A stretch of DNA of 64,000 bases from Halomonas sp. GT. Lineage in GTDB: Bacteria > Pseudomonadota > Gammaproteobacteria > Pseudomonadales > Halomonadaceae. Below, one piece after another: positions 765 through 13,671 of the stretch; the first letter of the stretch is position 1; every line of letters begins with the position of its first letter. The stretch covers positions 682,001 through 746,000 of the forward strand of contig NZ_CP020562.1 in NCBI RefSeq assembly GCF_002082565.1, read 5' to 3'. Both the position numbers and the translations under genes were made by a program. A model generated the notes under the pieces. It ran no database searches. It had not been told where the DNA came from and was given only the letters and a program-made list of their open reading frames with translations.

Positions 765-1439
765 ATGGTCTCTTCCTCAGTGGCTCCCGGCGGCTTTATT
801 CAACAGCAAAACCTTGTTGAACAGGTGGCCGACTATTTGACGCAAGCGATTATCCAGCAACACTTTTTGCCCGGTGAGCGGCTTTCAGAAGTGCAGCTGT
901 CTCGGGATTTAGGCGTCAGCCGTGCGCCGGTTCGCGAGGCCGCTCGCTTATTGGAAAGTCGTGGGTTGTTGGTCTCAAAACCGAGGCGTGGTTTTTTTGT
1001 CAGGGCGTTGAATGCCGTTGAATTAGAGGATGTCTTCGATCTGCGGCTATGCCTTGAACGCCATGCCATCCAACGCTTATCAGAGCGCTATAGCAGCGAC
1101 GCTGAGCGCGCGCTAAAACAGCAGGTAGAGGTTTTATGCGAAGCGACCGCCAGCAATGATGGAACACGCCGCATTGAAGAAGACCTGCAGTTTCACCGCT
1201 TAATAATTCATTACGCGGGCAACGAGCGGCTGCTGCGGGCATTTGATGGCTTAACCCATGAACTTCGTCTGTGCATTACGCTGATTACCAAAACCCACGA
1301 AGCCCCCGATACCATTGCCACCAGTCACTTTAAGCTGCTAGATGCCTTGGGTAGCGGCCGTTCAGAGGCTTGCCGCGAGGCCATTGACTACCATATAGGC
1401 GTTGCTAGGGATTTTGTGGTGAGCAGCGTGGGAGAGTGA
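765..1439 (+). CDS. GntR family transcriptional regulator (FadR/FCD type)
   Basis: A 224-residue GntR-family repressor/activator. The N-terminal winged helix-turn-helix covers about residues 20-85, with the characteristic LPGERLSEVQLSRDLGVSRAPVREAARLLE run split over the recognition helix, then the wing SKPRRGFFVR. The C-terminal all-helical FCD ligand-binding domain shows FDLRLCLERHAI, DLQFHRLIIHYAGNERL and SHFKLLDALGSG, including the Asp/His residues that usually bind a metal. The start at 765 has an AAGAG-type ribosome binding site. It is divergent from the ABC binding-protein gene, and the two GTCGAC palindromes between them are plausible operators. The effector is unknown; a substrate or intermediate of the transported compound is a reasonable guess. 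Confidence 0.88.
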   Translation: MVSSSVAPGGFIQQQNLVEQVADYLTQAIIQQHFLPGERLSEVQLSRDLGVSRAPVREAARLLESRGLLVSKPRRGFFVRALNAVELEDVFDLRLCLERHAIQRLSERYSSDAERALKQQVEVLCEATASNDGTRRIEEDLQFHRLIIHYAGNERLLRAFDGLTHELRLCITLITKTHEAPDTIATSHFKLLDALGSGRSEACREAIDYHIGVARDFVVSSVGE

Positions 1440-1585: not shown

Positions 1586-4500
1586 ATGGCGCATTTGCTA
1601 CGCATCGTTATGATTCACGGCCACTTGTCAGGGGTGGTTGAACTCAATGTGGATGGCCACACCAATATTTGCGGCACCAACGCGTCAGGCAAAACCACGC
1701 TTCAGCGGTTAGTGCCGGTGTTTTACGGCGAGCTGCCCAATAAGGTGGTGCCGAAAACCCGCATGAAGTTTGATGCCTTCTATTTGCCCACTCGTCAAAG
1801 CTATCTCGTTTACGAATATCGCCGCGAAGCAGGTAATGTTTGCCAAGTCGTGCTGACGCGCAAGCAAGAAGGTGGCGTGGAGTATCGTTTTGTCGGTGCC
1901 CCTTATCGGCCAGAAGACTATCTGATCGAAACTGAGAAAGGCCCCTTGGCACTGGAGTACCCACAGTGGTCTAGCGGATTGCGCCGCAGCGGGATTCCTG
2001 TCTCTTCCAAGCTGGGGGCTACCTCCGAGTTTCGCTCTGTGATCCAAAACGACTTTACCCAGCTGCACGGTAATAGTCGCGATGGCCTAAAGCTGCGCCA
2101 AATCGCGGCGCAGTTTAGTCTGGTTAACCCTGAACGGCGTATTCGTCATATCGAAAAATTGGTCTCTGCTGTGCATGCGAAAGAGGGCAAGATGGATACC
2201 CTCAAAACCATGCTGGCGGCAATTTTCGAAGAGGATGGCGTCGAGCTGCCGGTCACCCGCATTCGCAGTGCCAAAGCGCGGGAGTGGATTGCCCAGATGC
2301 GCCAGTCCATGCGCCTGGAGCCGCTGCAGGCCGCGCTGACTAAACTTGGTGGCATCGACCGCGAATTGGCCCAGTTAGAGACCACGCTGTGGCAGTTGAA
2401 ACCCCAGCTAAGCGCCGACCATCAGCAGGCAGAGCAGCGCATTGCGGAGCTGGATGGCGAGTTAAACCGCCACCAGCGCGAATTCCAGCAGCGTGAAAAT
2501 GCCTACACTCAGCAGCGCGATGAGCTGAACGACCGCCACAGTGAAGTTGCGAGCGACTTACAGCACACTCAGCGTCGCTTGAATGACCTGCAAACCCAGT
2601 TTGAGCACTACGCCGATGCCGACATGACCGGCCTGGAGCGAGACATCAACGCCTTGCCACAGTGGCGTGAGCAGCGTGATCAGCTTCAGAAGCACCTGCA
2701 AGTTATGCAAGAGGCGGTAAAAGAGAGCCAGGCGCGTTTAGATGGCCGGTTACGCGAGCTTTCCGAAGCACTTGCCCGGCAAACTCAAGAAAATCAGGAG
2801 TTGATAGATGCCCTGGTCGAGGAAAAAGCCCAACGCCGAGAGCAGCAGTGGCAAGCCGAACAGCAGCATAACGAGCGCTATCAGCAAGAGCGCCAACGGC
2901 TAGAGGGTGAGTATCAAGCGCAGTTAGAACTGGGTGTTGAGCAACTAGCCGAATTAAAAGCGCAGCTGGCGATGCCCACCCAAACCGCTGAAGAGGCTCA
3001 AGAAGCCGAGCTTGCCCAGGCGCGTTTAGACCAAACACAGCAGGAACGCAGCGCTGCCGCCGCCACGTTGGAAGCGCTGCGCCGCGAGCTTGAAGGCCAC
3101 AAACGTGAGCGCGACGCCGCTGAGCAGCAGCTGGTGCAGTGTCGCCAGCAGCGTGAGCGGGCCGAACAACACTGCTATGCGCTCTATCAACAGCGCGACC
3201 CCGAACAAGGCAGCCTGCGCCACTTTTTGCGTTACCACCGCCCCGGTTGGGAGCAGCAGCTTGGTAAGGTTATTGCGCCAGAGCTACTTGAGCGCCGAGA
3301 CCTCGCCCCGCAGCTTGCTGAAGGCGCTAGCGACGACCTGTTCGGGCTAGCGCTGGACCTAAGCGCCATTGCACTGCCGGATTACGCCCAAGACGAAGCC
3401 AGTTTGCTGGCGGCGATTGAAGAGGCGGATGGCGCTAAACAGCGCGCCCAAGCCGAGTGTGCCGCTGCCGAAAAAGCCTTAAAGCAGTACAACGAACGGG
3501 TGCAACAGGCCGACGAGGCCCAAGATCAGGCGCGTATGGGGTATCAGCGTGCCGAACAGGAAGTGGAGTATGCCCTTGAGGCTCGCCGCCAGCAGCAAGA
3601 GCGCCATACCAAGCGCCAGCAGGCACGTCGAGCGGAGCACCAAGCGGCGTTGGCTCGCCAGGAGCAGGCCCAGACCGAACTGCGTGAAGAGAAACGCCAG
3701 TCGCTTGCCGAGCTGGCCGAGACCCATCAGGGCCAACTGCTGGAGTTAAAAGCCGATGCGCAAAACCAGCTGGATAGCCTGGATGCGCAGCTACGCCAGT
3801 ACAAGCAGCAGCTTAACGATGCCAACGCGGAACATCAGCGCCAGCGCAATGAGCTGGAAGCCGCCTTCAGCCAGGAACTTGCCGAGCAGGGCGTGGACCC
3901 CGCGCAGCTTCAGGAAACGAAAAAACGCATAGAGCAACAGAATGAGCGCATTCGTAAAATCGCCGCTCGCCAGGAAGAACTCACCGAGTACCAACGCTTT
4001 ATGCGCGTGGAGTGGAGCCAGCACAAGCCCCAGCTGGTGGCGCAGGAAGCGGAGCTTGTTCAGCTTGACCAGCAGTTGAAACGTGAAAAAGCGCGCCTCA
4101 AAAACGACTTCCAGGCCGCACGTGAAGCGCATCAATCAGCGGTTAATGAGCTAAAAATTCAGCGCGCAAATGCCCACGGCAGTGTAGAAGCCCTTAAGCC
4201 GCTGCTGGCCCAGTTGGAAAGTTTGGACATCGTTTCAGAGGGGGCGCCCTTAGCGGATGCCGTAGGTGACATGGAGGAGCGCATTGAGCGTGCGCGCCAA
4301 GCGTTAACCAGCCGCCATCAGCAGCTTGAACAGCTGCGCCGGGGCTGTCTGGAGGTAGAAAGCCAGCTGATTAAAGATGCCAGCAGCGGCTTTGCCGATG
4401 CACTGCAAAGCGAACGCGAGAAGCTGCCGAACGACAGCCCGCGACTAGTGTTGCCGCTGCTGCGCGACATGTTAAAACTGTTAGAAGATCAACAGCAGCA

Positions 4501-5251
4501 ACTGATTCAGGAAGGGCGCAATTTAAGCGATGACCTGGATAAATTCTTTATTGTGTTCCGCGACTTAAACCGCCGTATCAGTGCGCAAAGCCGTCGGCTT
4601 TCCGACGAAGTAGCGGATGACCTGCGCTTAGAAGGCATCAGCAAAGCGGAAGTGCGCATTCAATCGACGATCGATGAGCTGGGTTTCTGGGAGCCTTTAA
4701 AGTTGTTTGCCCAGCGCTACAAAGCGTGGCGGGAATCTGGCCAGATGTTGCCCAGCGACGATTACCTTAATGCGCTGGCCGATGTGGTCGATTTGCTGCG
4801 CAGCGACCAGCAGTACAGCTTCGAAAGCCTGCTGCGCCTTGAACTGCACCTAAACGAGGGCGGCACTGACCTGGTGATCAAAAACGACCGCCAGTTGTTA
4901 GAGTCTTCAAGCCATGGCATGGCCTACCTGATTTTGTGTAAGTTCCTGCTGGCGTTTACGCGGCTGCTACGGGGGGATGCGCAAATTGCTATCCATTGGC
5001 CGATTGATGAAATCGGCACGCTGGCCTACCACAATGTCGAAAAGTTGTTCGACGCTTGTGACAGCAACCGCATTCATATTGTGGGGGCTTTCCCTAACCC
5101 GGAATCGGATGTGCTGCTGCTGTTTGCTAATCGCTACCTGATTGAGCGGGACCCTAACCAGCCCAACCAGCGCCTGCTAAAACGTATTGAACCGCGCCTT
5201 AGCCCGCTTGCGCAGCGGATCAAGGAGCGTCAGCAAGAGGTGACCGCATGA
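1586..5251 (+). CDS. MukB/JetC-like SMC ATPase of a Wadjet-type complex
   Basis: A 1221-residue SMC-like ATPase. The N-terminal head has a Walker A motif GTNASGKT (residues 30-37). About residues 240-530 and 620-1000 are Gln/Glu/Arg-rich coiled coil. A short globular stretch around residues 535-612 interrupts the coil where an SMC hinge would be. The C-terminal head carries a signature-like segment SSSHGMAYLIL near residue 1108 and a Walker B with catalytic Glu in IHWPIDEIGTL near 1140. This build resembles MukB/MksB/JetC, the motor that extrudes plasmid DNA in Wadjet systems. The gene overlaps the next by ATGA and has an AAGGA ribosome binding site. Assignment to Wadjet rests on the gene company; an RNA or DNA repair SMC is the main alternative. 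Confidence 0.75.
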   Translation: MAHLLRIVMIHGHLSGVVELNVDGHTNICGTNASGKTTLQRLVPVFYGELPNKVVPKTRMKFDAFYLPTRQSYLVYEYRREAGNVCQVVLTRKQEGGVEYRFVGAPYRPEDYLIETEKGPLALEYPQWSSGLRRSGIPVSSKLGATSEFRSVIQNDFTQLHGNSRDGLKLRQIAAQFSLVNPERRIRHIEKLVSAVHAKEGKMDTLKTMLAAIFEEDGVELPVTRIRSAKAREWIAQMRQSMRLEPLQAALTKLGGIDRELAQLETTLWQLKPQLSADHQQAEQRIAELDGELNRHQREFQQRENAYTQQRDELNDRHSEVASDLQHTQRRLNDLQTQFEHYADADMTGLERDINALPQWREQRDQLQKHLQVMQEAVKESQARLDGRLRELSEALARQTQENQELIDALVEEKAQRREQQWQAEQQHNERYQQERQRLEGEYQAQLELGVEQLAELKAQLAMPTQTAEEAQEAELAQARLDQTQQERSAAAATLEALRRELEGHKRERDAAEQQLVQCRQQRERAEQHCYALYQQRDPEQGSLRHFLRYHRPGWEQQLGKVIAPELLERRDLAPQLAEGASDDLFGLALDLSAIALPDYAQDEASLLAAIEEADGAKQRAQAECAAAEKALKQYNERVQQADEAQDQARMGYQRAEQEVEYALEARRQQQERHTKRQQARRAEHQAALARQEQAQTELREEKRQSLAELAETHQGQLLELKADAQNQLDSLDAQLRQYKQQLNDANAEHQRQRNELEAAFSQELAEQGVDPAQLQETKKRIEQQNERIRKIAARQEELTEYQRFMRVEWSQHKPQLVAQEAELVQLDQQLKREKARLKNDFQAAREAHQSAVNELKIQRANAHGSVEALKPLLAQLESLDIVSEGAPLADAVGDMEERIERARQALTSRHQQLEQLRRGCLEVESQLIKDASSGFADALQSEREKLPNDSPRLVLPLLRDMLKLLEDQQQQLIQEGRNLSDDLDKFFIVFRDLNRRISAQSRRLSDEVADDLRLEGISKAEVRIQSTIDELGFWEPLKLFAQRYKAWRESGQMLPSDDYLNALADVVDLLRSDQQYSFESLLRLELHLNEGGTDLVIKNDRQLLESSSHGMAYLILCKFLLAFTRLLRGDAQIAIHWPIDEIGTLAYHNVEKLFDACDSNRIHIVGAFPNPESDVLLLFANRYLIERDPNQPNQRLLKRIEPRLSPLAQRIKERQQEVTA

Positions 5252-5877
5252 TCGAACACGGCCCGCTACTGGAACGCTTGCTGGCTGGCGAGTTTGTCTG
5301 CGCCGTCAGTGATGACAACGCCTTCCGCCACCTAGCCAACGAAGAGACCCGCGACGCGATTGATGACTACCTGCGCCCGCTCAACCGCAGGCTGGCGAGC
5401 AATGATGAAGGCAGTGTCTACTTTTTAGCTTGGCGACAGCTGAACGAAGCCGCTCGGGAGCAGCTATCGCGCCAGCTGAGTGACACGGTCAACAGCCTGT
5501 TGCCGCTGCTGGAATGGCTGCAACTGGTTCAAGAGGCGCTAGGCCGCGACACCTTGGCGGCCCCTGGTGATGTGCTTAAGCCCGCTGAGTTCAGCGCTAA
5601 GTGCGAAGACAACCAAAGCCTGCGTGAGCGTTTGGAACGGCTAGCCACAGACAGCTTCTTTGGTTCCCAGAGCGACCAGTTGGATGCCCAAGTAAAGCAG
5701 TTATTTAAACGCTTGAAAGAGCATGGTTACTTGCTTCAGCCCCACACTGAGCGTCAGGTGTTTGTGGTCACCGGTAAAATTGATTACCTGATCGAGGTGG
5801 TGCGCTTTATCCGCGATGAGGAAAACTTGCCCATCGATGCGGAGCAGGAAGAGGGTGCCCAGGAGGCGCTGCTGTGA
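5248..5877 (+). CDS. MukE/MksE/JetB-like subunit
   Basis: A 209-residue, mostly helical protein whose opening (LLERLLAGEFVCAVSDDNAF, then a DYLRPLNRRLA stretch) and C-terminal RQVFVVTGKIDYLIEVVRFI look like the winged-helix MukE/MksE family that bridges the kleisin and the SMC heads. Its size fits JetB/MksE (about 200-250 residues). The start overlaps the SMC stop (ATGA), and its own stop overlaps the next gene (GTGA), so translation is probably coupled and the three products made in fixed proportion. No enzymatic motif is visible. The family call is from overall pattern and operon position, so it is moderate. Confidence 0.6.
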   Translation: MIEHGPLLERLLAGEFVCAVSDDNAFRHLANEETRDAIDDYLRPLNRRLASNDEGSVYFLAWRQLNEAAREQLSRQLSDTVNSLLPLLEWLQLVQEALGRDTLAAPGDVLKPAEFSAKCEDNQSLRERLERLATDSFFGSQSDQLDAQVKQLFKRLKEHGYLLQPHTERQVFVVTGKIDYLIEVVRFIRDEENLPIDAEQEEGAQEALL

Positions 5878-7103
5878 GTGAACTGGAAAGCCGCCTGCTA
5901 AAAACCGGCGCTGAACGGCTGGCGCTATTGGGCAAACATGCCGAACGACTGATGCAGGGCTACACTCGTGATGACGTGCCGTTAGATGGACTCAACGACA
6001 GTGCGCTGCGCAAACTGTTGGCTGCTCGAGTGTTATGGCGGCCCGATGAGCAGAGCGGCGTAAAGCTCGCTCCTAAAGTGCGCGAGCTGATCGCTGAAAT
6101 GCTGGCCGACGAAACCCGCCGCCATGTAAATGCCGATGTTGCGGAAACCCTTGAGCTAGTGCGTTCGTTGGTGCACAGCTACCGTGAAGCCCGCAGCCGA
6201 GGTGAACATTGGCGACAGGAGCAGCAACTGCTGCGCCTGCGTCAGGAAGTTGACGATCTAAACGGCCGCTTTGCCGATGCTATTGATAGCCTTTGGCAGC
6301 GGCTCAATAGCGATTTCGGCTTTGTTAGCCAGTTGAGCGATAAGATTCGCGAAAACGACCGCGCCCAAAAACAGATAGTTAGGTTGTTGGATGGTCTGGC
6401 ACTGATCGACTTCGACGAACTGATTGCGTTAGTAGGCAGCGATGGCAGCCTGCGCAAGCTACTGATCAGCCAGCTACAGCAGCGCTTAAGCCACCATTAC
6501 ACCAGCCTGCGGGAAGTGCAACGGCGGTTAATTGAGCTAATGGCACGCTTTCGCAAACAGCAGGCACGCAGCCGCCTGATCAGCGGCATGGTCGCGTTTA
6601 TGCGCGAACATCCAGGCTTTGTGCCGAGTAATTACGCCAAACGCAGTGATGTTCCTGCGTTATTCAACCATGCTGCGCCGTTAAATGCCGCCGCTGCGCC
6701 AGCGCTAGATCGCGCGCTGGAAAGTCGCGTGCTGGCAGAACTGCTGCATGAGTTGCCAACCCCACGCCATGCCACGCAAACCGTTGAGTCGGCAGTGCCT
6801 GCGCTCACGCCGGAAGATAACCTTGCCGCTGCACGCCAGCAGGCGCTTAAACAAGATGTCGAACGCTTTTATCTTGCGGTGTTAGATCAGCCCCCCGCCG
6901 AGCCAATCAGCGCCCTCGCTTATCTGTATGACAGCCACCTCGAATGGCCCGATGAAATTTGGCTGTTTCAGGTTATCTCCGAATACCAGGGCTTGCCACG
7001 TAGCGAGCAGCAAGCGTTTCGCCTACACCAAGATGAATCACCGGCCAGCCCATTTAACGATCTGCGCCTGATTCATGACGTCGTACTGGCGGTGGCAGTA
7101 TGA
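5874..7103 (+). CDS. Probable kleisin (MukF/JetA-like) subunit
   Basis: A 409-residue protein starting at GTG within the GTGA overlap with the upstream gene. It is almost entirely helical: an N-terminal winged-helix-like part (SALRKLLAARVLWRPDE, KLAPKVRELI), a central amphipathic helical region (about residues 110-240, LRQEVDDLNGRFADAIDSLW and following) and a C-terminal domain (about 310-409). This layout is what a MukF/JetA kleisin would show, and it is the only candidate kleisin in the operon. No catalytic motif is seen. I did not recognise a precise family; the call follows from size, predicted fold and position between JetB-like and JetD-like genes. Confidence 0.5.
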   Translation: MSELESRLLKTGAERLALLGKHAERLMQGYTRDDVPLDGLNDSALRKLLAARVLWRPDEQSGVKLAPKVRELIAEMLADETRRHVNADVAETLELVRSLVHSYREARSRGEHWRQEQQLLRLRQEVDDLNGRFADAIDSLWQRLNSDFGFVSQLSDKIRENDRAQKQIVRLLDGLALIDFDELIALVGSDGSLRKLLISQLQQRLSHHYTSLREVQRRLIELMARFRKQQARSRLISGMVAFMREHPGFVPSNYAKRSDVPALFNHAAPLNAAAAPALDRALESRVLAELLHELPTPRHATQTVESAVPALTPEDNLAAARQQALKQDVERFYLAVLDQPPAEPISALAYLYDSHLEWPDEIWLFQVISEYQGLPRSEQQAFRLHQDESPASPFNDLRLIHDVVLAVAV

Positions 7104-7966
7104 CATTATCAGGCCGCGCCCGTGCCGGGCTTAACAGTGTTGTTCGAGAGCTTAACCGCCAGCCCGTGGTAGAAAAATCCCGTGGCAAGTGGGTCGAAGA
7201 TGTAGTGGCATGGTGCCATCAGCAAGATATTGATCTAACCATGCGGATTTCCAACCAAGCGCTGCGCTTTGACGCCACGCTCATGGCGCAAATCAACAGC
7301 ATGTTGGAGAGTGACCGTTTGGCACCGCTAGGGCGCTCGTTAAGTGGCTTAAGCAGTGCCGCCCAAGCAGCTGAAGGCGTTGAGGAGGATAAAAGCCGCC
7401 GCGAAGGCCCACGCGCAAAACGCGTGCTGATCAACTTGCCGCCGCAGCCCTCTGCATGGCTTGCGCCAGAGCCGCGCAGCATACGTGATGTTGATGTGAG
7501 CGGCCTGAAGCTGCCGGTGTTTGGCGCGCTCGTTCAGGTGGAAAACCTGGATAGCTTCTACGCGTTTTCGCCAGAGATAGCAGCGCTTAGCGGCTACGCT
7601 AACCCGCTGGTCGTTTACCGTGGCGACAGCCATTACGGCGGCGGCTTTGCCGAACTGACAAAAGCATGGCGCAAAACCAATCGGCCACACCTCTACGCCG
7701 GTGACTTCGACGCCAAAGGAGTGACCCTAGCCCTAGACAGCGGCGCCACGCATCTACTACTACCGGACATCGAATGGCTCACCCAGCACGTCACGCCACT
7801 GCACCAACCCGCTGAACAGCTGCCGTTCCAACGCCGCCTACGCCAACTGCATCTCACGTTGCCCAACCACCAACCCCTACGCCCGTACTTAGCCCTGCTG
7901 GAAAAACAGCGCGGGCTAAAACAGCAGTGGTTTGGAGGGGATATGGTGTGTGTATCGCTCAGTTAA
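7100..7966 (+). CDS. JetD/MksG-like Toprim nuclease subunit (short form)
   Basis: A 288-residue protein with the acidic residues of a Toprim/topoisomerase VI-A-like catalytic domain. A glutamate at residue 148 lies in VQVENLDSFYAF, and a DxD pair at 202/204 lies in LYAGDFDAKGV, resembling the (I/V)EN...F and GDxDxxG motifs of JetD (DUF2220-like). JetD is the subunit that cleaves captured circular DNA in Wadjet systems. The protein is shorter than the roughly 390-residue JetD of described systems and has only about 130 residues before the Toprim part, so the N-terminal arm looks reduced. It overlaps the upstream gene by ATGA and is the last gene of the operon. Confidence in a Toprim-type nuclease is fair; function is by analogy. 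Confidence 0.65.
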   Translation: MTLSGRARAGLNSVVRELNRQPVVEKSRGKWVEDVVAWCHQQDIDLTMRISNQALRFDATLMAQINSMLESDRLAPLGRSLSGLSSAAQAAEGVEEDKSRREGPRAKRVLINLPPQPSAWLAPEPRSIRDVDVSGLKLPVFGALVQVENLDSFYAFSPEIAALSGYANPLVVYRGDSHYGGGFAELTKAWRKTNRPHLYAGDFDAKGVTLALDSGATHLLLPDIEWLTQHVTPLHQPAEQLPFQRRLRQLHLTLPNHQPLRPYLALLEKQRGLKQQWFGGDMVCVSLS

Positions 7967-8211
7967 AAACTGCCTTAGGGCTGTCACTCAACCCCGCTAT
8001 TTTACGCTTTCCCTTACTTGGCCGTTAACGAGTTCGCAAATACGCGACGTTTTGATAGTTTGCCAACATTGGCTTTTCCCTAAAGGGAATTAGTGGGGTA
8101 GATTCAGGTGAGGGCGACAACAACCATTTTTAAGAAAAGCGTATCGCGTTGGCGAGCTTTTTTATAAATTTCAATGTATGGCAGGTAGATGGTTTGGCTG
8201 CTGGGTGTTAG

Positions 8212-8570
8212 GAAAATACGCATGTCAGGACTATTCTTTCCGGCGTTCTTTTTGAGGTGCGTGAGCTTCACCAAGTTGTAGCAATGGCCATCAATTACGA
8301 AGGTGAAGAGTACCGATTCCCTGATGGTTTAGACAAAATAGAGCAGGAGTTGGCGCGGTATGCGGCAGTTATCCCTGGCAGGCTAAAGTGGCTGAGCGAT
8401 GATAGCCCGATGAACCGGTAAAGCTTGAGGAGTATCGGTCTCATGCCCTAGAGCTAGAATCTCGAATGACGAAGGTCCGGCCTATGAGTCAGGAATTAAA
8501 AGTTGAAGTCATACCGGGCAAGTCGTCTAACAAATCGCTCAATTCGTCGCCGCAAAACGGCGCGAATTAG
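8212..8570 (+). pseudogene. Decayed ORF of unknown family
   Basis: Two adjacent open stretches in different frames read like one protein. The first (8212-8421) gives a run containing INYEGEEYRFPDGLDKIEQ and IPGRLKWLSDDSP; the second (about 8407-8570) continues with DEPVKLEEYRSHALELES and ends at TAG. A frameshift around 8400-8410 would join them. The first stretch starts directly after an in-frame TAG with no proper start codon. Protein-like composition suggests a gene remnant. I do not recognise the family. Confidence 0.35.
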
Positions 8571-8605
8571 CGCAGCGTTAAGTTTTTTGCTCCACCCTCG
8601 CAGAC

Positions 8606-8611
8606 TATAAT
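8606..8611 (+). promoter_or_regulatory. -10 box for ParD/ParE-type module
   Basis: A perfect TATAAT lies 38 bp before the chosen antitoxin start. The T-rich tract 8583-8588 sits about 17 bp upstream as a weak -35. Because the box overlaps an in-frame upstream ATG (8610), that ATG cannot be the start of the antitoxin. Confidence 0.5.
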
Positions 8612-8648
8612 GTCATACGCTGTAGTCGCTAAATATGAGGGTATTGTT

Positions 8649-8921
8649 ATGAGCGTCACCACAATCCGCCTTCAAGCAGACGTTGAACAGCACCTGGAAG
8701 CAATCGCCAACAGGTTACACCGGAGTAAAGGCTGGGTGATCAACCAGGTATTGTCGGAATACATAGAAAAGCAGCCGCTTGAGCAAAAGCGGTTGAAACA
8801 AACGTTAGAGGCAATGGAGTCTGCTGCCCAAGGCAAGGTTGTTGATGCCAGCGAGGTTCACCACTGGCTTAATAGCTGGGGAACCGAAAACGAGCAGGAT
8901 GCGCCAGGGTCAGGTAAGTGA
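8649..8921 (+). CDS. Ribbon-helix-helix antitoxin (CopG/ParD-like)
   Basis: A 90-residue antitoxin. The N-terminal 45 residues have the ribbon-helix-helix pattern: a beta strand VTTIRLQADVEQHLEAIA followed by RSKGWVINQVLSEYIEK, with the conserved Gly-Trp turn. The C-terminal half is charged and would wrap the toxin. I chose ATG 8649 because GAGGGT precedes it by a suitable distance, whereas the in-frame ATG at 8610 overlaps the -10 box. Its stop overlaps the GTG start of the toxin gene (GTGA), the usual coupled arrangement. It likely represses its own promoter, alone or with the toxin. Confidence 0.85.
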   Translation: MSVTTIRLQADVEQHLEAIANRLHRSKGWVINQVLSEYIEKQPLEQKRLKQTLEAMESAAQGKVVDASEVHHWLNSWGTENEQDAPGSGK

Positions 8922-9199
8922 AACTGGTTTACACGGCCGAAACCATTGACGATTTGAAACGCCTCCGAGAGTTCATTGCGGATCACAACCCGTCTGCGGC
9001 GGCCAGGATTGCCGCCGAGCTTGTTGGCAAAATCGAATTACTTCCAGGCTTGCCCAATGTGGGCGCACCGGTTGAAATGGCACCGGTGCCTGACTCTGTT
9101 CGAGATATGGTTTTCGGAAAATACGTCGTTCGATATTCAGTCCATGCCACTGCCATCATTGCTCTCCGGGTATGGCATGGTCTTAAAGGTGAACGGTAG
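8918..9199 (+). CDS. ParE/RelE-superfamily toxin
   Basis: A 93-residue toxin of the ParE branch of the RelE superfamily. It opens with VYTAETIDDLKRLREFI, has the PSAAARIAAELVGKIELL helix, LPNVGAPV, then the strands FGKYVVRYSV and AIIALRVWHGLKGER typical of ParE ends. The start is a GTG overlapping the antitoxin stop. ParE toxins usually act on DNA gyrase, but some relatives cleave mRNA; the sequence alone does not decide this. The module follows the SMC operon and may stabilise this accessory region. Confidence 0.85.
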   Translation: MKLVYTAETIDDLKRLREFIADHNPSAAARIAAELVGKIELLPGLPNVGAPVEMAPVPDSVRDMVFGKYVVRYSVHATAIIALRVWHGLKGER

Positions 9200-9251
9200 T
9201 CATTAAACCAGGCGCGGCACTCGGATGCCTTTGTATCTGCTTTGCTGCGTA

Positions 9252-9380
9252 AAAACCATCGGCGCTCTGCGCTCACCGGCGAATGCTGAGCATTTGAATC
9301 GCTCAACTGAACAATTCAAAGCAGGTAAGGTAACCCGCAGAGACTTGATGGATGAGTCGTCGATTACTGTCATGGACTGA
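9252..9380 (+). pseudogene. yefM-like antitoxin remnant
   Basis: The frame ending at TGA 9378-9380 reads LRSPANAEHLNRSTEQFKAG and continues KVTRRDLMDES, which closely follows the C-terminal third of YefM antitoxins (LLRSPANARRL... then a Gly-Lys and an acidic end). No start codon or N-terminal domain is present upstream, so only the toxin-binding tail survives. It is followed in overlapping register by the YoeB remnant, preserving the original operon order. Confidence 0.6.
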
Positions 9381-9535
9381 CGAATCCTGGAGCGATTCCC
9401 TTCACTGGCAAACCAGCGCCATTAAAGGAAAACTTAGCTGGTTTTTGGTCGCGACGTATAGATGATACGAATCGATTCGTCTACGCAGTTGATGATAATG
9501 CGATTACGATTATTTTGTGTCGTTATCACTATTAG
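9364..9535 (+). pseudogene. yoeB-like toxin remnant with internal deletion
   Basis: Two pieces of a YoeB toxin are joined in different frames. The first (9364-about 9414) reads LLSWTDESWSDSLHWQTS, the YoeB N-terminus. The second (9419-9535) reads PLKENLAGFWSRRIDDTNRF and ends AITIILCRYHY, the YoeB C-terminus with the active-site His-Tyr. About 25-30 central codons, including the region before the catalytic Glu, are missing and the frame is shifted. It cannot make active toxin. Confidence 0.75.
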
Positions 9536-9581
9536 ATTCGGGCCTTCCACAGACTATCTCAGAGACCATTCAGAATAAGCG

Positions 9582-10543
9582 ATGAACCTACTCTTCCTCG
9601 GCACCTCCGCGGGTGTGCCCACCAAACAAAGAAATGTCTCTGGGATTGCTTTGCGTGAAAGCAAAGGGAAGGGGTGGTACCTGATTGATTGTGGTGAAGG
9701 TACCCAGCATCAGGTCTTGCATACCAAGCTGTCGTTTCATTCACTAAAAGCCATCTTTATTACCCATGTGCATGGCGACCACTGCTACGGGCTGCCGGGC
9801 ATTCTGGCGAGTGCCGCCATGGGGGGCCGGAAAGCGCCACTGACCATTGTTGCGCCCGCAGGTATCAAAGCTTGGTTGGAGGCCACCTGTGAGGTGACGC
9901 AGCTATGCTTACCTTTCGCCTTAGAGTTTATCGCCTCAGACGACTTGCCAAGCGTTGAGTTTGAGAACATCGCGGTTGAGACATTCAGCCTTTCACATCG
10001 GGTGGCGTCTTATGCCTATACATTTACGGAACGAAAGGTTGATGCTGCCCTGGACGTGGATAAGCTAGCGCAAAAGGGGATTCCAAGAGGGCCGTTGTGG
10101 GGCAGTTGAAGCAAGGGGTTGATATTGAGTTTGCAGGTGAGCAGTTAAAAAGCCATGACTACCTAATCTTCAAGAACACGCCTAGGAAAGTGGTGATCGC
10201 TGGGGATAATGACCAGCCTGACTTATTGAGCGAGGCGTGTGCAGAGGCGCAGGTGTTGGTACATGAGGCCACCTATACCGAAGAGATGGCCCAGAAGGCC
10301 GGTGATGTGGGGCATAGCTACGCCAAGCTTGTTGCTGCTTTTGCCGAATCGATAAAGCTACCTAGTTTGGTGCTGACACACTTCAGCCCTCGTTATCAGT
10401 TTAGCCCCCATGCGTCGCCGTCCATTGAGGACATCCGCAAAGAAGCTGAGTGCGTCTACTCGGGCTCTCTTTTCTTGGCGCGGGATTTTGGCGAATACAC
10501 CTTGGAAAAAACGGGCCACTTTTCTGAGGTGGTGGGCGAGTAG
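9582..10543 (+). pseudogene. rnz: Ribonuclease Z, single-base frameshift
   Basis: The gene encodes a metallo-beta-lactamase fold tRNA 3'-processing endonuclease (RNase Z/RNase BN). The first part (9582-about 10098) has the N-terminal NLLFLGTSAGVP and the zinc motif ITHVHGDHCYG. The second part continues in another frame with IFKNTPRKVVIAGDN, LVHEATY, GHSYAK and LTHFSPRY, all expected family motifs. They meet inside the conserved GPLWGQLKQG sequence: at 10099-10102 there are four G, and five would restore WGQLKQG exactly. So one G is missing, either a real inactivating mutation or an assembly/sequencing error in a homopolymer. If corrected, the protein is about 320 residues, the normal length. 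It lies between two toxin-antitoxin modules. Confidence 0.85.
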
Positions 10544-10558
10544 TTTTCCGCGCGTTTG

Positions 10559-10813
10559 TCAGTAGTGATACCGAAGCTGGGCGATCAGCAGCGCATCGTC
10601 AGTCACCTTGTAAATCATCCGGTGCTCTTCGTTGATGCGTCGAGACCAGTAACCGGCCAAGCCGTGTTTAAGAGGCTCTGGTTTACCAACGCCGCCAAAG
10701 GGTTCTCGTTGGGTTTCTTTGATTAGCTTATTGATACGGCCAAGCACTTTTTTGTCCGTTTTTTGCCAGTATAAATAATCTTCCCATGCATGCTCAGCGA
10801 AGATGAGTTTCAT
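10559..10813 (-). CDS. yoeB: YoeB family mRNA interferase toxin
   Basis: An 84-residue toxin, exactly the length of E. coli YoeB and very similar to it (AWEDYLYWQKTDKK, KPEPLKHGLAGYWSRRI, ending RYHY). The catalytic residues map one to one: Glu46 in KPEPLK, Arg65 after NEEH, and the terminal His83-Tyr84. YoeB binds the ribosomal A site and cleaves translated mRNA. Its start codon overlaps the stop of the yefM-type antitoxin gene, so translation is coupled. All active residues are present and it should be functional. Confidence 0.95.
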   Translation of the reverse strand: MKLIFAEHAWEDYLYWQKTDKKVLGRINKLIKETQREPFGGVGKPEPLKHGLAGYWSRRINEEHRMIYKVTDDALLIAQLRYHY

Positions 10814-11061
10814 TCCAAGAGTTCCCGCTCTTGGCCGCCACCTTGCTCTAGCTCGGCAATTGACTCAAGCAAGCGTTGAGCATTCTTGGGGGCGCGCAGC
10901 AGGTAGGCGGTCTCTTGCAGTGCCTCATAATCCTCTAAAGAGACCATGACCACAGACTGCGCTTTGTTACGGGTAATGATCATGGGCGCGTGATCTTCGC
11001 AGACCTGTTGCATTGTTTTCGCTAGATTGGTTCTAGCTGCTGTGTAGCTAATGGCATCCAT
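10810..11061 (-). CDS. yefM: YefM family antitoxin
   Basis: An 83-residue Phd/YefM antitoxin. The N-terminal DNA-binding half shows ISYTAARTNLAKTMQQVCED, APMIITRNKAQSVVMVSLED and YEALQETAYLLRAPKNAQRL; the acidic C-terminal tail would mask YoeB. It precedes and overlaps yoeB. The start has a CAGGAA ribosome binding site. Just upstream lies a pair of TGTACA-type palindromes with the geometry known for YefM operators, so autoregulation is likely. Confidence 0.95.
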   Translation of the reverse strand: MDAISYTAARTNLAKTMQQVCEDHAPMIITRNKAQSVVMVSLEDYEALQETAYLLRAPKNAQRLLESIAELEQGGGQERELLE

Positions 11062-11089
11062 AGGTAATTCCTGTTCACGATATTGTTCA

Positions 11090-11107
11090 TGTACAGAATA
11101 ATGTACG
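11090..11107. promoter_or_regulatory. YefM-YoeB operator (paired TGTACA hexamers)
   Basis: TGTACA (11090-11095) and TGTACG (11102-11107) lie 29-46 bp upstream of the yefM start, 12 bp centre to centre. Paired TGTACA-core palindromes spaced by 12 bp are the established binding site of the E. coli YefM-YoeB complex. The match in motif and spacing makes autorepression here very plausible. Confidence 0.7.
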
Positions 11108-11173
11108 TTTTTGGTTTTGGCAATCGGCTGCGTTTTGAAGATGCCACTTATTTGACGTTGAAGCCGCTTAGTA

Positions 11174-11199
11174 GCACTGGCTTCCGGAGAAGCCAGTGC
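11174..11199. terminator. Hairpin between yefM-yoeB promoter region and hydrolase gene
   Basis: A perfect 11-bp stem, GCACTGGCTTC pairing with GAAGCCAGTGC, around a CGGA loop. It lies 26 bp past the end of the leftward hydrolase gene. On the plus strand it is followed by a T-rich run, on the minus strand by a weak one, so its strength as a terminator for the hydrolase gene is uncertain. Confidence 0.5.
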
Positions 11200-11224
11200 T
11201 TACTTCTTTATTTCAAAACAAAAG

Positions 11225-12421
11225 TTATTTCAAAAACGCTCGCAGCGTTTCGCTGGCTTGGTCGATAGCGACAACGCCATCTAAATGGCCGCGGTTGCCT
11301 TCTAAGGTTTCAAGCGTTACTTCGGTGCCGTCGGCTTCTATCAGCTCGGCAGTGCGGCGCACGCCTTCGGGGGCGAAGACGAGGTCGTTTTCGCTATAGA
11401 GCATCAGCGTTGGGGCGTCGATGGCGGCCAGTCCTTCTTCTAGTGAATCACCGTGGCCCGCCATAAAGAGTTGGTTGGCGCGAACCAAATACAGCAGATG
11501 GTTGGCATCGGAAAGTTCGGCGCGGGCGGCGGCGACGTCATCCAGCGTTTTCTCAATAGCGTAGCGGGCGTTGATATCTTGAGCGGGGTCGCGTTCGTCA
11601 TCGGCCCAGTCGCGGTTGAACGTTTCGTTGGCCCACTGCCAGTGATTGGCATTGAGGGTGACGAGCTTGAGCGCTTCTTTTAGGCCATCGGTGGGTGGCT
11701 CGCCATCGTAATAGTTGCCTTCATTCCAGTTGGCGTCTAAGCGAATGGGCGCTGCCCAGGCGCTAAGCGTTGCCAGTAACCAGGGGTCGGCAACGCCGCC
11801 GCCAATAACAGGAATCAGCCTGTCCACTTTGTCAGGGTACGCGCTGGCCCATTCAAATGCTTGAAGCGCCCCCATCGAGGCACCCATGACCGCGTGTAGC
11901 GATTCAACGCCTTGGCTCTCTAGTAATGCGCGCTGTACCTCGACAAAGTCACGAATCGTCACTACAGGAAAGTCCATTCCCCACGGTTCGCCGGTGTCTG
12001 GGTTAATAGAAGCGGGGCCAGTGGTAGTGACATTGGGGTCGTGGGCGTTGAGGTTCACCAGCGTATCGGACGCAATAATGTAGTACTCGTCGGTATCCAG
12101 TGGTTTGCCGGGGCCAATGATGGCATCCCAGTAGCCGGTTGGCTCGCCATCCGGGTCATAACGACCTGCAGCGTTGCTGGTGCCAGAGAAAAAATGGGTA
12201 ATTAAAATGGCATTGTCACGGGCGTCGTTTAATTCACCGTAGGCTTCCCAACCCACCGCAAGTTCGGGGATCGTTTCGCCGCCTTGAGTGGTAAAGTCTT
12301 GCATCTCGAAGGTTTGTTTTTCGACGACGCCATCCCAGGCCAGTAGCGGTGATGCTGCCAGTAATCCGAGGCTGGTAACTGTCACCACGGTCAATAAAGA
12401 GTGTCGTTGCTTGAGGGGCAT
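11225..12421 (-). CDS. Exported MetX-like alpha/beta hydrolase
   Basis: A 398-residue alpha/beta hydrolase of the homoserine O-acetyltransferase (MetX) family. The nucleophile elbow is GASMGALQAFEWA, and the acid and base are seen in LYSENDLVFAPEG and NRGHLDGV near the C-terminus. The family start motif (YGELNDARDNAILITHFFSG) and the GPGKPLDTDEYYIIASD run are also present. Unlike cytoplasmic MetX, it opens with a clear signal peptide (SLLTVVTVTSLGLLAASPLLA), so it should act in the periplasm, where acetyl-CoA is not available. A role in methionine synthesis is therefore unlikely; esterase or acyl hydrolase activity is more probable. No operon partner. Confidence 0.85.
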   Translation of the reverse strand: MPLKQRHSLLTVVTVTSLGLLAASPLLAWDGVVEKQTFEMQDFTTQGGETIPELAVGWEAYGELNDARDNAILITHFFSGTSNAAGRYDPDGEPTGYWDAIIGPGKPLDTDEYYIIASDTLVNLNAHDPNVTTTGPASINPDTGEPWGMDFPVVTIRDFVEVQRALLESQGVESLHAVMGASMGALQAFEWASAYPDKVDRLIPVIGGGVADPWLLATLSAWAAPIRLDANWNEGNYYDGEPPTDGLKEALKLVTLNANHWQWANETFNRDWADDERDPAQDINARYAIEKTLDDVAAARAELSDANHLLYLVRANQLFMAGHGDSLEEGLAAIDAPTLMLYSENDLVFAPEGVRRTAELIEADGTEVTLETLEGNRGHLDGVVAIDQASETLRAFLK

Positions 12422-12498
12422 ACGCCTTCCTTAAATGAGGGATTGTTATGATTATTGTTGGCAACGGCTGCGTTGCCACCCTCTTAGCGTAGACGGCT

Positions 12499-13671
12499 TT
12501 AGCGCATTTTAAATGGGTTTAGCCCGTTAGCTTGTTGCATCATCATGCGTTTGGCGAGCGGTACGCGTTCGGCAAGGTGCAGGCTGAGGTCACCCAGCTG
12601 GCGTAGCGGTTTTGCGCCGGTGAACAGGTGATGGAAACTGTCGGTGGCGGCAATCATGGCTTGGTTAGCCAAACGGCGGTGGCATTCGAAGCGGTGCAGG
12701 CTGATAGCGTCACCGGGGTCGCGGCCTTTGATAATCAGCTCTGCCAGGGTGTCGGCATCGTGCAGACCAATATTTAGCCCTTGCCCTGCCAGCGGATGCA
12801 CCACGTGGGCGGCATCGCCAATCAGTGCTAAGCGCTTGCCGATATAGCGTTTGGCGTGCTGGCGTCTAATTGGAAAACTCGCCTTTGCGACCACACGGGT
12901 TAGCTTGCCTAGCCGCTTGGGAAAGGCTGTTTCAATGGCCGTTTTTAGGGCGTCGCTGGAGAGCTGTTCACGGGCTTTGGTGGCTTCGTCGCTGTCATAC
13001 CACACCAGCGATGCACGATGGCCTGGTAAGGGAAGCATGGCAATCGGGCCGGTGGGGGTGAAACACTGCCAACTGATATCTTGTTGGGGTAGCTCGGTTT
13101 CTACATTAATAATCATCGCCCGCTGATGGTAGTCGTAGCTACTAACGGTAATGCCAGCAAGTTCTCGTAGCGTCGAATGTGCGCCATCTGCGCCAACAAT
13201 CAAGCGGGCGCTTAAGGTTTTGCCGTTATCTAGCTCCAGCATGCGGCCGGTGCTAGCCGCCATGGTGCTGAGCGGTGCGCACTGGGTATAGCAGGTCACG
13301 CTGGGAAGATTCTCTAAGCGCTGCCACAACGCATATTGCAGGGTGCGGTTTTCGATAAAAATACCGAAGTCATCCATGCCACTGTCCTGGGCAGAAAACA
13401 GTGAGTGGCCGGAGCCATCCTGATTAGCGACATCAATATGGCGAAACGGGCAGCAGCGCTCTTCGGGAAGCGCGGTGCCGCTCGCTTTTACAAACGCCAG
13501 CGAACGGGCATTAAGTGAGGAGATACGCAGGTCATAATCGCCGCTGAGCGGGGTGGGGGCGCTGCCACGTTCTACCAGCCCAACCGACATGCCGGTATGG
13601 CCTAACCGGGCTGCTAGCGCGGCACCCACCATGCCACCGCCGACAATGATAATCTCGTGATCCCATTGCAT
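12499..13671 (-). CDS. UbiH/UbiF/UbiI-family FAD monooxygenase
   Basis: A 390-residue flavoprotein hydroxylase of the family that hydroxylates the ubiquinone ring. The N-terminal dinucleotide motif is VGGGMVGAALAARL. The middle VGADGAHSTLRELAGI and the C-terminal GKRLALIGDAAHVVHPLAGQ plus NIGLHDADTLAELI are the other FAD-binding signatures. I set the start at 13671 because AAGGAG lies seven bases upstream of that ATG; the frame extends 13 codons further upstream without such a site. Which position of the quinone ring it hydroxylates cannot be decided from sequence; UbiF- or UbiH-type is likely. It is divergent from the sirtuin gene. Confidence 0.87.
   Translation of the reverse strand: MQWDHEIIIVGGGMVGAALAARLGHTGMSVGLVERGSAPTPLSGDYDLRISSLNARSLAFVKASGTALPEERCCPFRHIDVANQDGSGHSLFSAQDSGMDDFGIFIENRTLQYALWQRLENLPSVTCYTQCAPLSTMAASTGRMLELDNGKTLSARLIVGADGAHSTLRELAGITVSSYDYHQRAMIINVETELPQQDISWQCFTPTGPIAMLPLPGHRASLVWYDSDEATKAREQLSSDALKTAIETAFPKRLGKLTRVVAKASFPIRRQHAKRYIGKRLALIGDAAHVVHPLAGQGLNIGLHDADTLAELIIKGRDPGDAISLHRFECHRRLANQAMIAATDSFHHLFTGAKPLRQLGDLSLHLAERVPLAKRMMMQQANGLNPFKMR

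Follow-up and report, generated by a model that had tools for sequence, protein, structure and literature searches.

In type I Wadjet systems (JetABCD, MksBEFG or EptABCD), a single operon encodes an SMC ATPase, a KITE subunit, a kleisin and the Toprim protein JetD. As described in the available text of PMC10586767 and PMC12287153, the dimeric SMC complex of Wadjet extrudes a small circle of DNA until it stalls, and JetD then cuts. The genes of type I stand in the order A-B-C-D, and the order mksFEBG is stated as conserved in the available part of PMC10123090. Among the type I control loci, PADLOC shows A-B-C-D in L245 and A, then C, then D in L246, and loci found through JetA carry a JetA ORF before a JetC-like ORF in a scan for these two. 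MukBEF and Pseudomonas MksBEF have three subunits without a nuclease (in the order F-E-B for MukBEF of E. coli), and loss of the nuclease has been proposed for Pseudomonas MksBEF in the portion of PMC10586767 that treats this system.

The 64,000-nucleotide stretch of the genome of the halophilic Halomonas sp. GT analysed here (the window) contains an operon with counterparts of all four, the kleisin being a probable one, in the order C-B-A-D (Table 1). The four overlapping genes of the initial annotation (1586-7966) were found as open reading frames on the forward strand, with four-base overlaps (ATGA, GTGA and ATGA) at all three junctions, and the leading position of the SMC gene and third position of the kleisin candidate are borne out both by ORF order and by homologous loci. 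The operon is likely to encode an SMC-kleisin-KITE loop extruder of the DUF3584 branch, together with a JetD/TopoVI-A-like Toprim nuclease that would cut small circular invaders. It is present in a single copy in the source genome, which also encodes Smc (1055 bits) and ScpA; the operon is therefore an extra SMC complex. ScpA is present in 28 of 31 genomes tested. Directly upstream stands a gene for a GntR-type regulator, with a homologue in the upstream flank of 24 among the 80 named loci; it is probably a marker of a shared chromosomal site, outside the operon.

Table 1. Features of the SMC operon and its upstream neighbour (positions in the window).
Feature	Position	Strand	Basis
GntR-type regulator directly upstream of the operon	765..1439	+	NCBIfam, all matches below curated cut-offs
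SMC ATPase, DUF3584 branch (JetC/MksB/MukB-like), 1221 aa	1586..5251	+	Pfam PF12128, head tree
Walker A GTNASGKT, SMC residues 30-37	1673..1696	+	Alignment of 12 SMCs
Non-canonical ABC signature region SSSHG, SMC residues 1107-1111	4904..4918	+	Alignment
Walker B region HWPIDE, SMC residues 1137-1142	4994..5011	+	D1141, E1142 invariant
KITE subunit, MksE/MukE/JetB-like, 209 aa	5248..5877	+	Pfam PF21980, hhalign
Probable kleisin, MukF/JetA-like, 409 aa, GTG start	5874..7103	+	AlphaFold2 model, PDB matches
Toprim protein, probable nuclease, JetD/MksG/TopoVI-A-like, 288 aa	7100..7966	+	Pfam, fold, acidic residues
Toprim acidic residue E148 (ENLDSF)	7541..7543	+	Invariant in 23 sequences
Toprim DxD motif, D202 and D204	7703..7711	+	Invariant in 23 sequences

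The SMC ATPase matches the Pfam family DUF3584 (PF12128) at 767 bits over residues 8-1187 (cut-off 31). It shares 99% identity with its counterpart in Vreelandella zhaodongensis, which makes the source genome very likely a Vreelandella (Halomonadaceae). The two motifs on which its initial annotation as MukB-like was founded, Walker A GTNASGKT and the Walker B-like IHWPIDEIG, were both located: the pattern GxNxxGK[ST] is found in all 97 SMCs compared, and D1141 and E1142 are invariant across 12 aligned SMCs. Of the 97 SMCs, one has a canonical LSGG sequence in its last 260 residues; by eye, S-S-x-G occupies the signature position in 17 of 20 aligned rows of this SMC family. In a tree of SMC heads with 36 rows, in which the Wadjet rows are all of type I, 20 SMCs of the window family and the MksB of Parabacteroides form one clade (support 100/100), which agrees with the separate branch first suggested as a possibility. 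This clade stands apart from Smc, RecN and SbcC, and eight type I JetC proteins form a separate clade (100/99), a difference accompanied by the near-universal lack of a canonical LSGG in the window family. MukB joins the type I JetC proteins and not the window branch (94/85), a placement flagged as a meeting of long branches. The window clade survives the addition of four JetC proteins (support 99.6 by a quick tree method). Pfam DUF3584 matches the MksB of Parabacteroides at 199 bits and has no match in four JetC proteins or in MukB at E 0.01. The PADLOC text calls its JetC models 'DUF3584 domain', a loose use of the name.

Several candidate rows for the other Wadjet types were rejected. A search of 200 genomes with DUF2397, as a route to the missing types, yielded a single match, which was below the cut-off. 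The JetC3 profile, tried as a source of type III rows, gave matches of at most 31 bits, mostly in the coiled-coil part of the profile. Of three loci with low-scoring JetD_C matches, L243 and L245, tried as type II/III rows, proved to be of type I, and L244 contains no large SMC-like ORF.

The 209-residue protein, initially annotated as MukE-like, passes the Pfam MksE family (PF21980) in hmmscan at 33.3 bits (cut-off 27), although a genome-wide search with PF21980 missed it in its genome (0 of 1), and hhalign relates it to the MksE of Parabacteroides (probability 97) but gives no useful match to the MukE of E. coli (probability 1.7). An IFDR motif near the N-terminus of JetB is named for type I Wadjet in the available text of PMC10586767; this pattern occurs in none of 100 KITE proteins, but also in none of three JetB-position controls, and is uninformative. 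The Parabacteroides MksFEB-like locus (L197, Bacteroidota) shares with the window a related KITE subunit as well as a DUF3584 SMC of the same clade, but its order is 398-residue protein - KITE - SMC, it lacks a Toprim gene, and its 398-residue protein has no detectable sequence relation to the kleisin candidate.

The 409-residue protein is a probable kleisin, judged from its predicted structure. The AlphaFold2 model (pLDDT 77) has seven top PDB matches that are all MukF, MukEF or MukBEF chains, with E values of 0.008-0.068 (none below 0.001) and an rmsd near 18 over the full span. Helical rows that are unrelated lie within about 1 Z, and the MukF-like fold is suggestive and not significant. 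The protein has no Pfam match over the cut-off, and Pfam gave no kleisin match on 12 diverse members of its family; a PDB profile search gave no kleisin, and hhalign found no link to JetA1, MukF or the Bacteroidota kleisin. The helical kleisin of the initial annotation thus stands in so far as a MukF-like fold ranks first, but without a sequence-profile link to described kleisins.

The 288-residue Toprim protein passes DUF7281 (PF23947) at 41 bits (cut-off 27) and has a TopoVI-A-like fold in a fold search that hardly probed its N-terminal part. Its E148, D202 and D204 are also invariant, by eye, in 23 rows of a wider Toprim alignment. These features, which uphold its first description as a Toprim protein, make it a probable JetD/TopoVI-A-like nuclease, although the JetD of Wadjet is longer by roughly 100 residues.

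The C-B-A-D order noticed in the window is widespread. Profiles were scanned in all six frames over 80 named loci, taken as the best among 388 relatives: 65 contain the complete set SMC-KITE-kleisin-Toprim, 12 contain SMC-KITE-kleisin only (four of them ending at or very near a contig end), three have broken frames in unchanged order, and none has any other order. L134, scored here as a four-gene locus, has only a short Toprim frame and counts as nuclease-lost in the SMC tree discussed below. Twenty further loci comprise 16 with all four genes in order, two without a Toprim gene, one with a split kleisin gene and one with only a piece of the SMC gene. Nine loci were also reached through the Toprim family. 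Six of these have the full C-B-A-D order; the three with weak Toprim matches have no KITE or kleisin match in the profile scan. One of these, L170, has a Toprim-like frame after a 938-residue ORF unmatched by the SMC profile, and in L171 and L172 a Toprim-like gene precedes an SMC-like ORF (59 and 252 bits, respectively), so parts related to those of the operon occur in other arrangements too.

DUF3584 matches over the cut-off are present in 127 of 250 sampled genomes of the family and in 66 of 75 genomes of the same genus (four of them in pieces or partial), but in only 10 of 369 genomes of a class-wide sample. Such near-core status within a genus is odd for a defence system. The locus is also found on mobile elements. 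Forty-five plasmid records match the SMC and four match the kleisin candidate; of eight plasmid loci opened, six have the order C-B-A-D, on plasmids of Enterobacter (IncC), Azospira (IncP), Marinobacter, Aromatoleum, Vibrio (a 939-kb record) and Acinetobacter, and the other two are a locus with only a piece of the SMC gene and that of Parabacteroides. The KITE position of the Azospira plasmid is occupied by an annotated gene that the KITE profile scan did not list. Dolichospermum phage Dfl-JY45, a cyanophage record, carries all four genes in the order C-B-A-D (842, 190, 268 and 98 bits), and none of 23 pattern matches on viral contigs is a relative. Because these four genes recur in this arrangement across distant taxa, chance is ruled out as the origin of the operon.

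On the Enterobacter IncC plasmid, the operon lies in a Tn7-like island beside a CBASS-type cassette, preceded by a tnsD-type gene and followed by a nucleotidyltransferase-ThiF-Mov34-SAVED set, and its SMC gene is split by an insertion sequence. On chromosomes of Vreelandella and close kin (17 loci), the DNA directly downstream of the Toprim gene varies between genomes. When the larger genes of nine of these loci were examined (two with Pfam only), defence-type genes were found downstream of the operon in six: DRT4/6 (L080), a type IIG restriction-modification system (L081), a Ppl-like ATPase (L084), DSR2 (L085), the Lamassu protein LmuB (L086) and SIR2 (L102). No defence genes were recognised downstream in L070, L075 and L088. 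Such a neighbourhood is guilt by association, not proof.

The nuclease gene appears to have a different history from the other three. A tree of 92 SMCs was made after removal of loci at contig ends (L083, L120, L131 and L133), a piece (L058) and broken frames (L065, L141, L142 and L143). A full Toprim gene is absent in 11 of the 92 rows, and the loss label requires eight changes on this tree, seven of them being forced by starred branches. Toprim stubs of about 40 residues remain in Onishia (L093 and L094) and of 20 residues in Chromohalobacter (L104). Downstream DNA aligns across the gap, and the junctions differ between L098 with L100, L140, L104, L093 with L094, L147, and L107; these six distinct junctions imply at least six deletion events, if one junction equals one event. 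The nuclease gene has apparently been deleted at least six separate times, with the other three frames open and conserved. Two loci of Alteromonas type, named by their nearest kleisins, contain neither nuclease nor stub; this lineage either lost the nuclease or never had it. The 80 named loci were found through SMC matches, and loss of the SMC gene is therefore under-counted relative to loss of the nuclease. The window operon has MukE-like and probable MukF-like partners in common with MukBEF and Pseudomonas MksBEF and differs from them in its additional Toprim gene, and its nuclease-free relatives resemble their three-gene composition.

In six pairs of loci both lacking the nuclease (the Alteromonas pair being saturated), the SMC has a dN/dS of 0.043-0.071, the KITE subunit one of 0.018-0.045 and the kleisin candidate one of 0.029-0.069. 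In seven pairs of which one locus has the nuclease and the other has lost it, dN/dS of the SMC is 0.046-0.130; the pair L105-L107 is clearly higher than the others (SMC 0.130, kleisin 0.138). Among 22 disjoint four-gene pairs, drawn from 64 loci of L070-L149 plus the window with loci dropped from the tree, L088 and short Toprim frames excluded, median dN/dS is 0.068 for the SMC, 0.036 for the KITE subunit, 0.049 for the kleisin candidate and 0.184 for the Toprim protein, which has the highest value of the four genes in all 22 pairs. Since L098 and L100 share a deletion junction, as do L093 and L094, the divergence within each pair would postdate the loss. However, neither pair is placed as sisters in the SMC tree, where the nuclease-bearing L110 and L096 lie among them (supports 84-96), so the deletion may possibly have spread by recombination. 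The low dN/dS values support, but do not prove, selection after the loss. Repeated loss of the nuclease suggests an additional role for the core beyond it, and the combination of a fast-evolving nuclease with a retained core suggests that the nuclease is under conflict or weaker constraint and that the core has a use of its own.

A mechanism can be proposed from these parts. A pair of SMC motors, with the kleisin as their bridge and the KITE subunit as regulator, would be loaded onto DNA and carry out ATP-driven loop extrusion. On small circular DNA, if the published work on type I Wadjet applies, the motors would exhaust the DNA, stall and expose a bent segment. The E...DxD residues and the fold of the Toprim subunit predict that it would cleave the stalled circle, with loss of plasmids and other small circular elements. 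After deletion of the nuclease, the selection data suggest that the core may retain a role that benefits the cell, as proposed for Pseudomonas MksBEF.

The best reading is that the operon would work like Wadjet but fits no catalogued profile. That it is a catalogued Wadjet of types I-III with rearranged genes is very unlikely: the operon has the same four kinds of parts (the kleisin being probable), a weak JetC1 match lies in the P-loop region of the window SMC (20.4 bits) and a plasmid KITE protein matches PADLOC JetB1 at 19.2 bits, but the JetC1 model gives 890-1832 bits for seven type I JetC proteins and 57 for MukB, and the head tree splits this branch from JetC1 with full support. PADLOC Jet models, through which alone types II and III were compared, reach no more than 20.4 bits on the four window proteins (11.4 bits for JetD3 on the Toprim protein) and have no match to the KITE subunit or the kleisin candidate; the operon is missed, and its order does not prove to be that of a known Wadjet type. 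Lamassu (LmuAB) likewise has an SMC-like ATPase, but PADLOC LmuB matches of the window SMC are at most 18 bits and cover the coiled coil only, and none of the four window proteins matches LmuA. Identity of this branch with the unidentified condensin of PMC10197239, as far as the available part of that source describes it, was considered but is not claimed, the Bacteroides ihuae control being below the cut-off for PF12128 and having no MksE match. In the accessible open literature, no description of the C-B-A-D order or of this branch was found; preprints were outside this scope, and an earlier description is possible. It is highly improbable that the 409-residue protein is an unrelated helical partner and the complex a different kind of SMC machine, as might be argued from the weakness of each fold match on its own and from sequence profiles that do not tie this protein to JetA, MukF or the Bacteroidota kleisin.

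A greater challenge to a primarily defensive role comes from the idea that the operon is mainly an accessory chromosome condensin resembling MksBEF, with plasmid cutting secondary or the Toprim protein active in decatenation or repair. Its near-core status and shared site in many Vreelandella, the six or more deletion junctions beside a core still under purifying selection, the lack of a nuclease in both Alteromonas-type loci examined and the TopoVI-A-like Toprim fold all accord with this idea, which is nevertheless unlikely, given that the operon also occurs on plasmids, within a Tn7-like island and in a phage record, that defence genes adjoin it in relatives, that the nuclease evolves faster than the core, and that the genome already encodes Smc and ScpA. 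A nuclease-armed loop extruder directed against small circular DNA remains the preferred reading of the window operon. It is quite possible, and proposed here tentatively, that such operons make up a fourth branch of SMC systems armed with a nuclease, absent from the catalogues and with a dual-use condensin core, from which several lineages have deleted the nuclease while keeping the core.

Halomonads are industrial hosts, in which knowledge of a plasmid barrier would be practically useful. The catalogue of Jet profiles (PADLOC-DB 2.0.0) misses this branch, and SMC-based plasmid defence may consequently be undercounted in halophiles and on plasmids. If the dual-use proposal is true, the losses described here would be repeated and recent cases of the step from defence to condensin by which MksBEF has been proposed to originate, and near relatives with and without the nuclease, such as those in Onishia and Chromohalobacter, would allow that step to be tested directly.

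Defence-type genes that differ by genome were found immediately 3' of the operon in six of the nine loci tested. The window itself has this variable spot occupied by a RelB-like antitoxin gene, scoring 26 bits, under the NCBIfam cut-off, and by a 93-amino-acid ORF 3' of and overlapping it, for which the NCBIfam search gave no match. Further downstream, one coding region, which we take from its motifs to encode an RNase Z-like protein of the metallo-beta-lactamase type, appears as two overlapping ORFs, as though a frameshift had broken it.

Features near the operon and in related loci
Feature	Location	Detail
Downstream defence-type genes	L080, L081, L084, L085, L086, L102 (relatives' operon loci)	DRT, type IIG RM, Ppl-like, DSR2, Lamassu, SIR2
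RelB-like antitoxin gene and overlapping small ORF	window 8610-9199	NCBIfam search
Coding region appearing as two overlapping ORFs	window 9582-10109 and 10097-10543	
Complete operon	L248 (PP438435.1) 6968-13323	Dolichospermum phage Dfl-JY45
Toprim-like and SMC-like genes	L171 1508-5406	59 bits to SMC profile
Toprim-like and SMC-like genes	L172 10234-14002	252 bits to SMC profile

All four operon genes are present in C-B-A-D order on a phage record. An Enterobacter hormaechei plasmid (L190) carries the operon with an IS256-like element inserted in its SMC gene. Public databases give the name 'phosphoenolpyruvate carboxylase' to kleisin homologues from Alteromonas relatives (P0124, P0139, P0155 and others), which appears to be an annotation error.

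Related parts also occur in other arrangements. At L171 and L172, opened through the Toprim family, the Toprim-like gene lies immediately 5' of the SMC-like gene, neither locus gave KITE or kleisin matches, and the pair possibly constitutes a different two-gene system. A Parabacteroides locus on a plasmid record (L197) encodes a DUF3584 SMC protein with an MksE-type KITE protein in reversed gene order. This SMC branch may be relevant in Bacteroidota, because two species of that phylum are described in PMC10197239 as having no recognised condensins.
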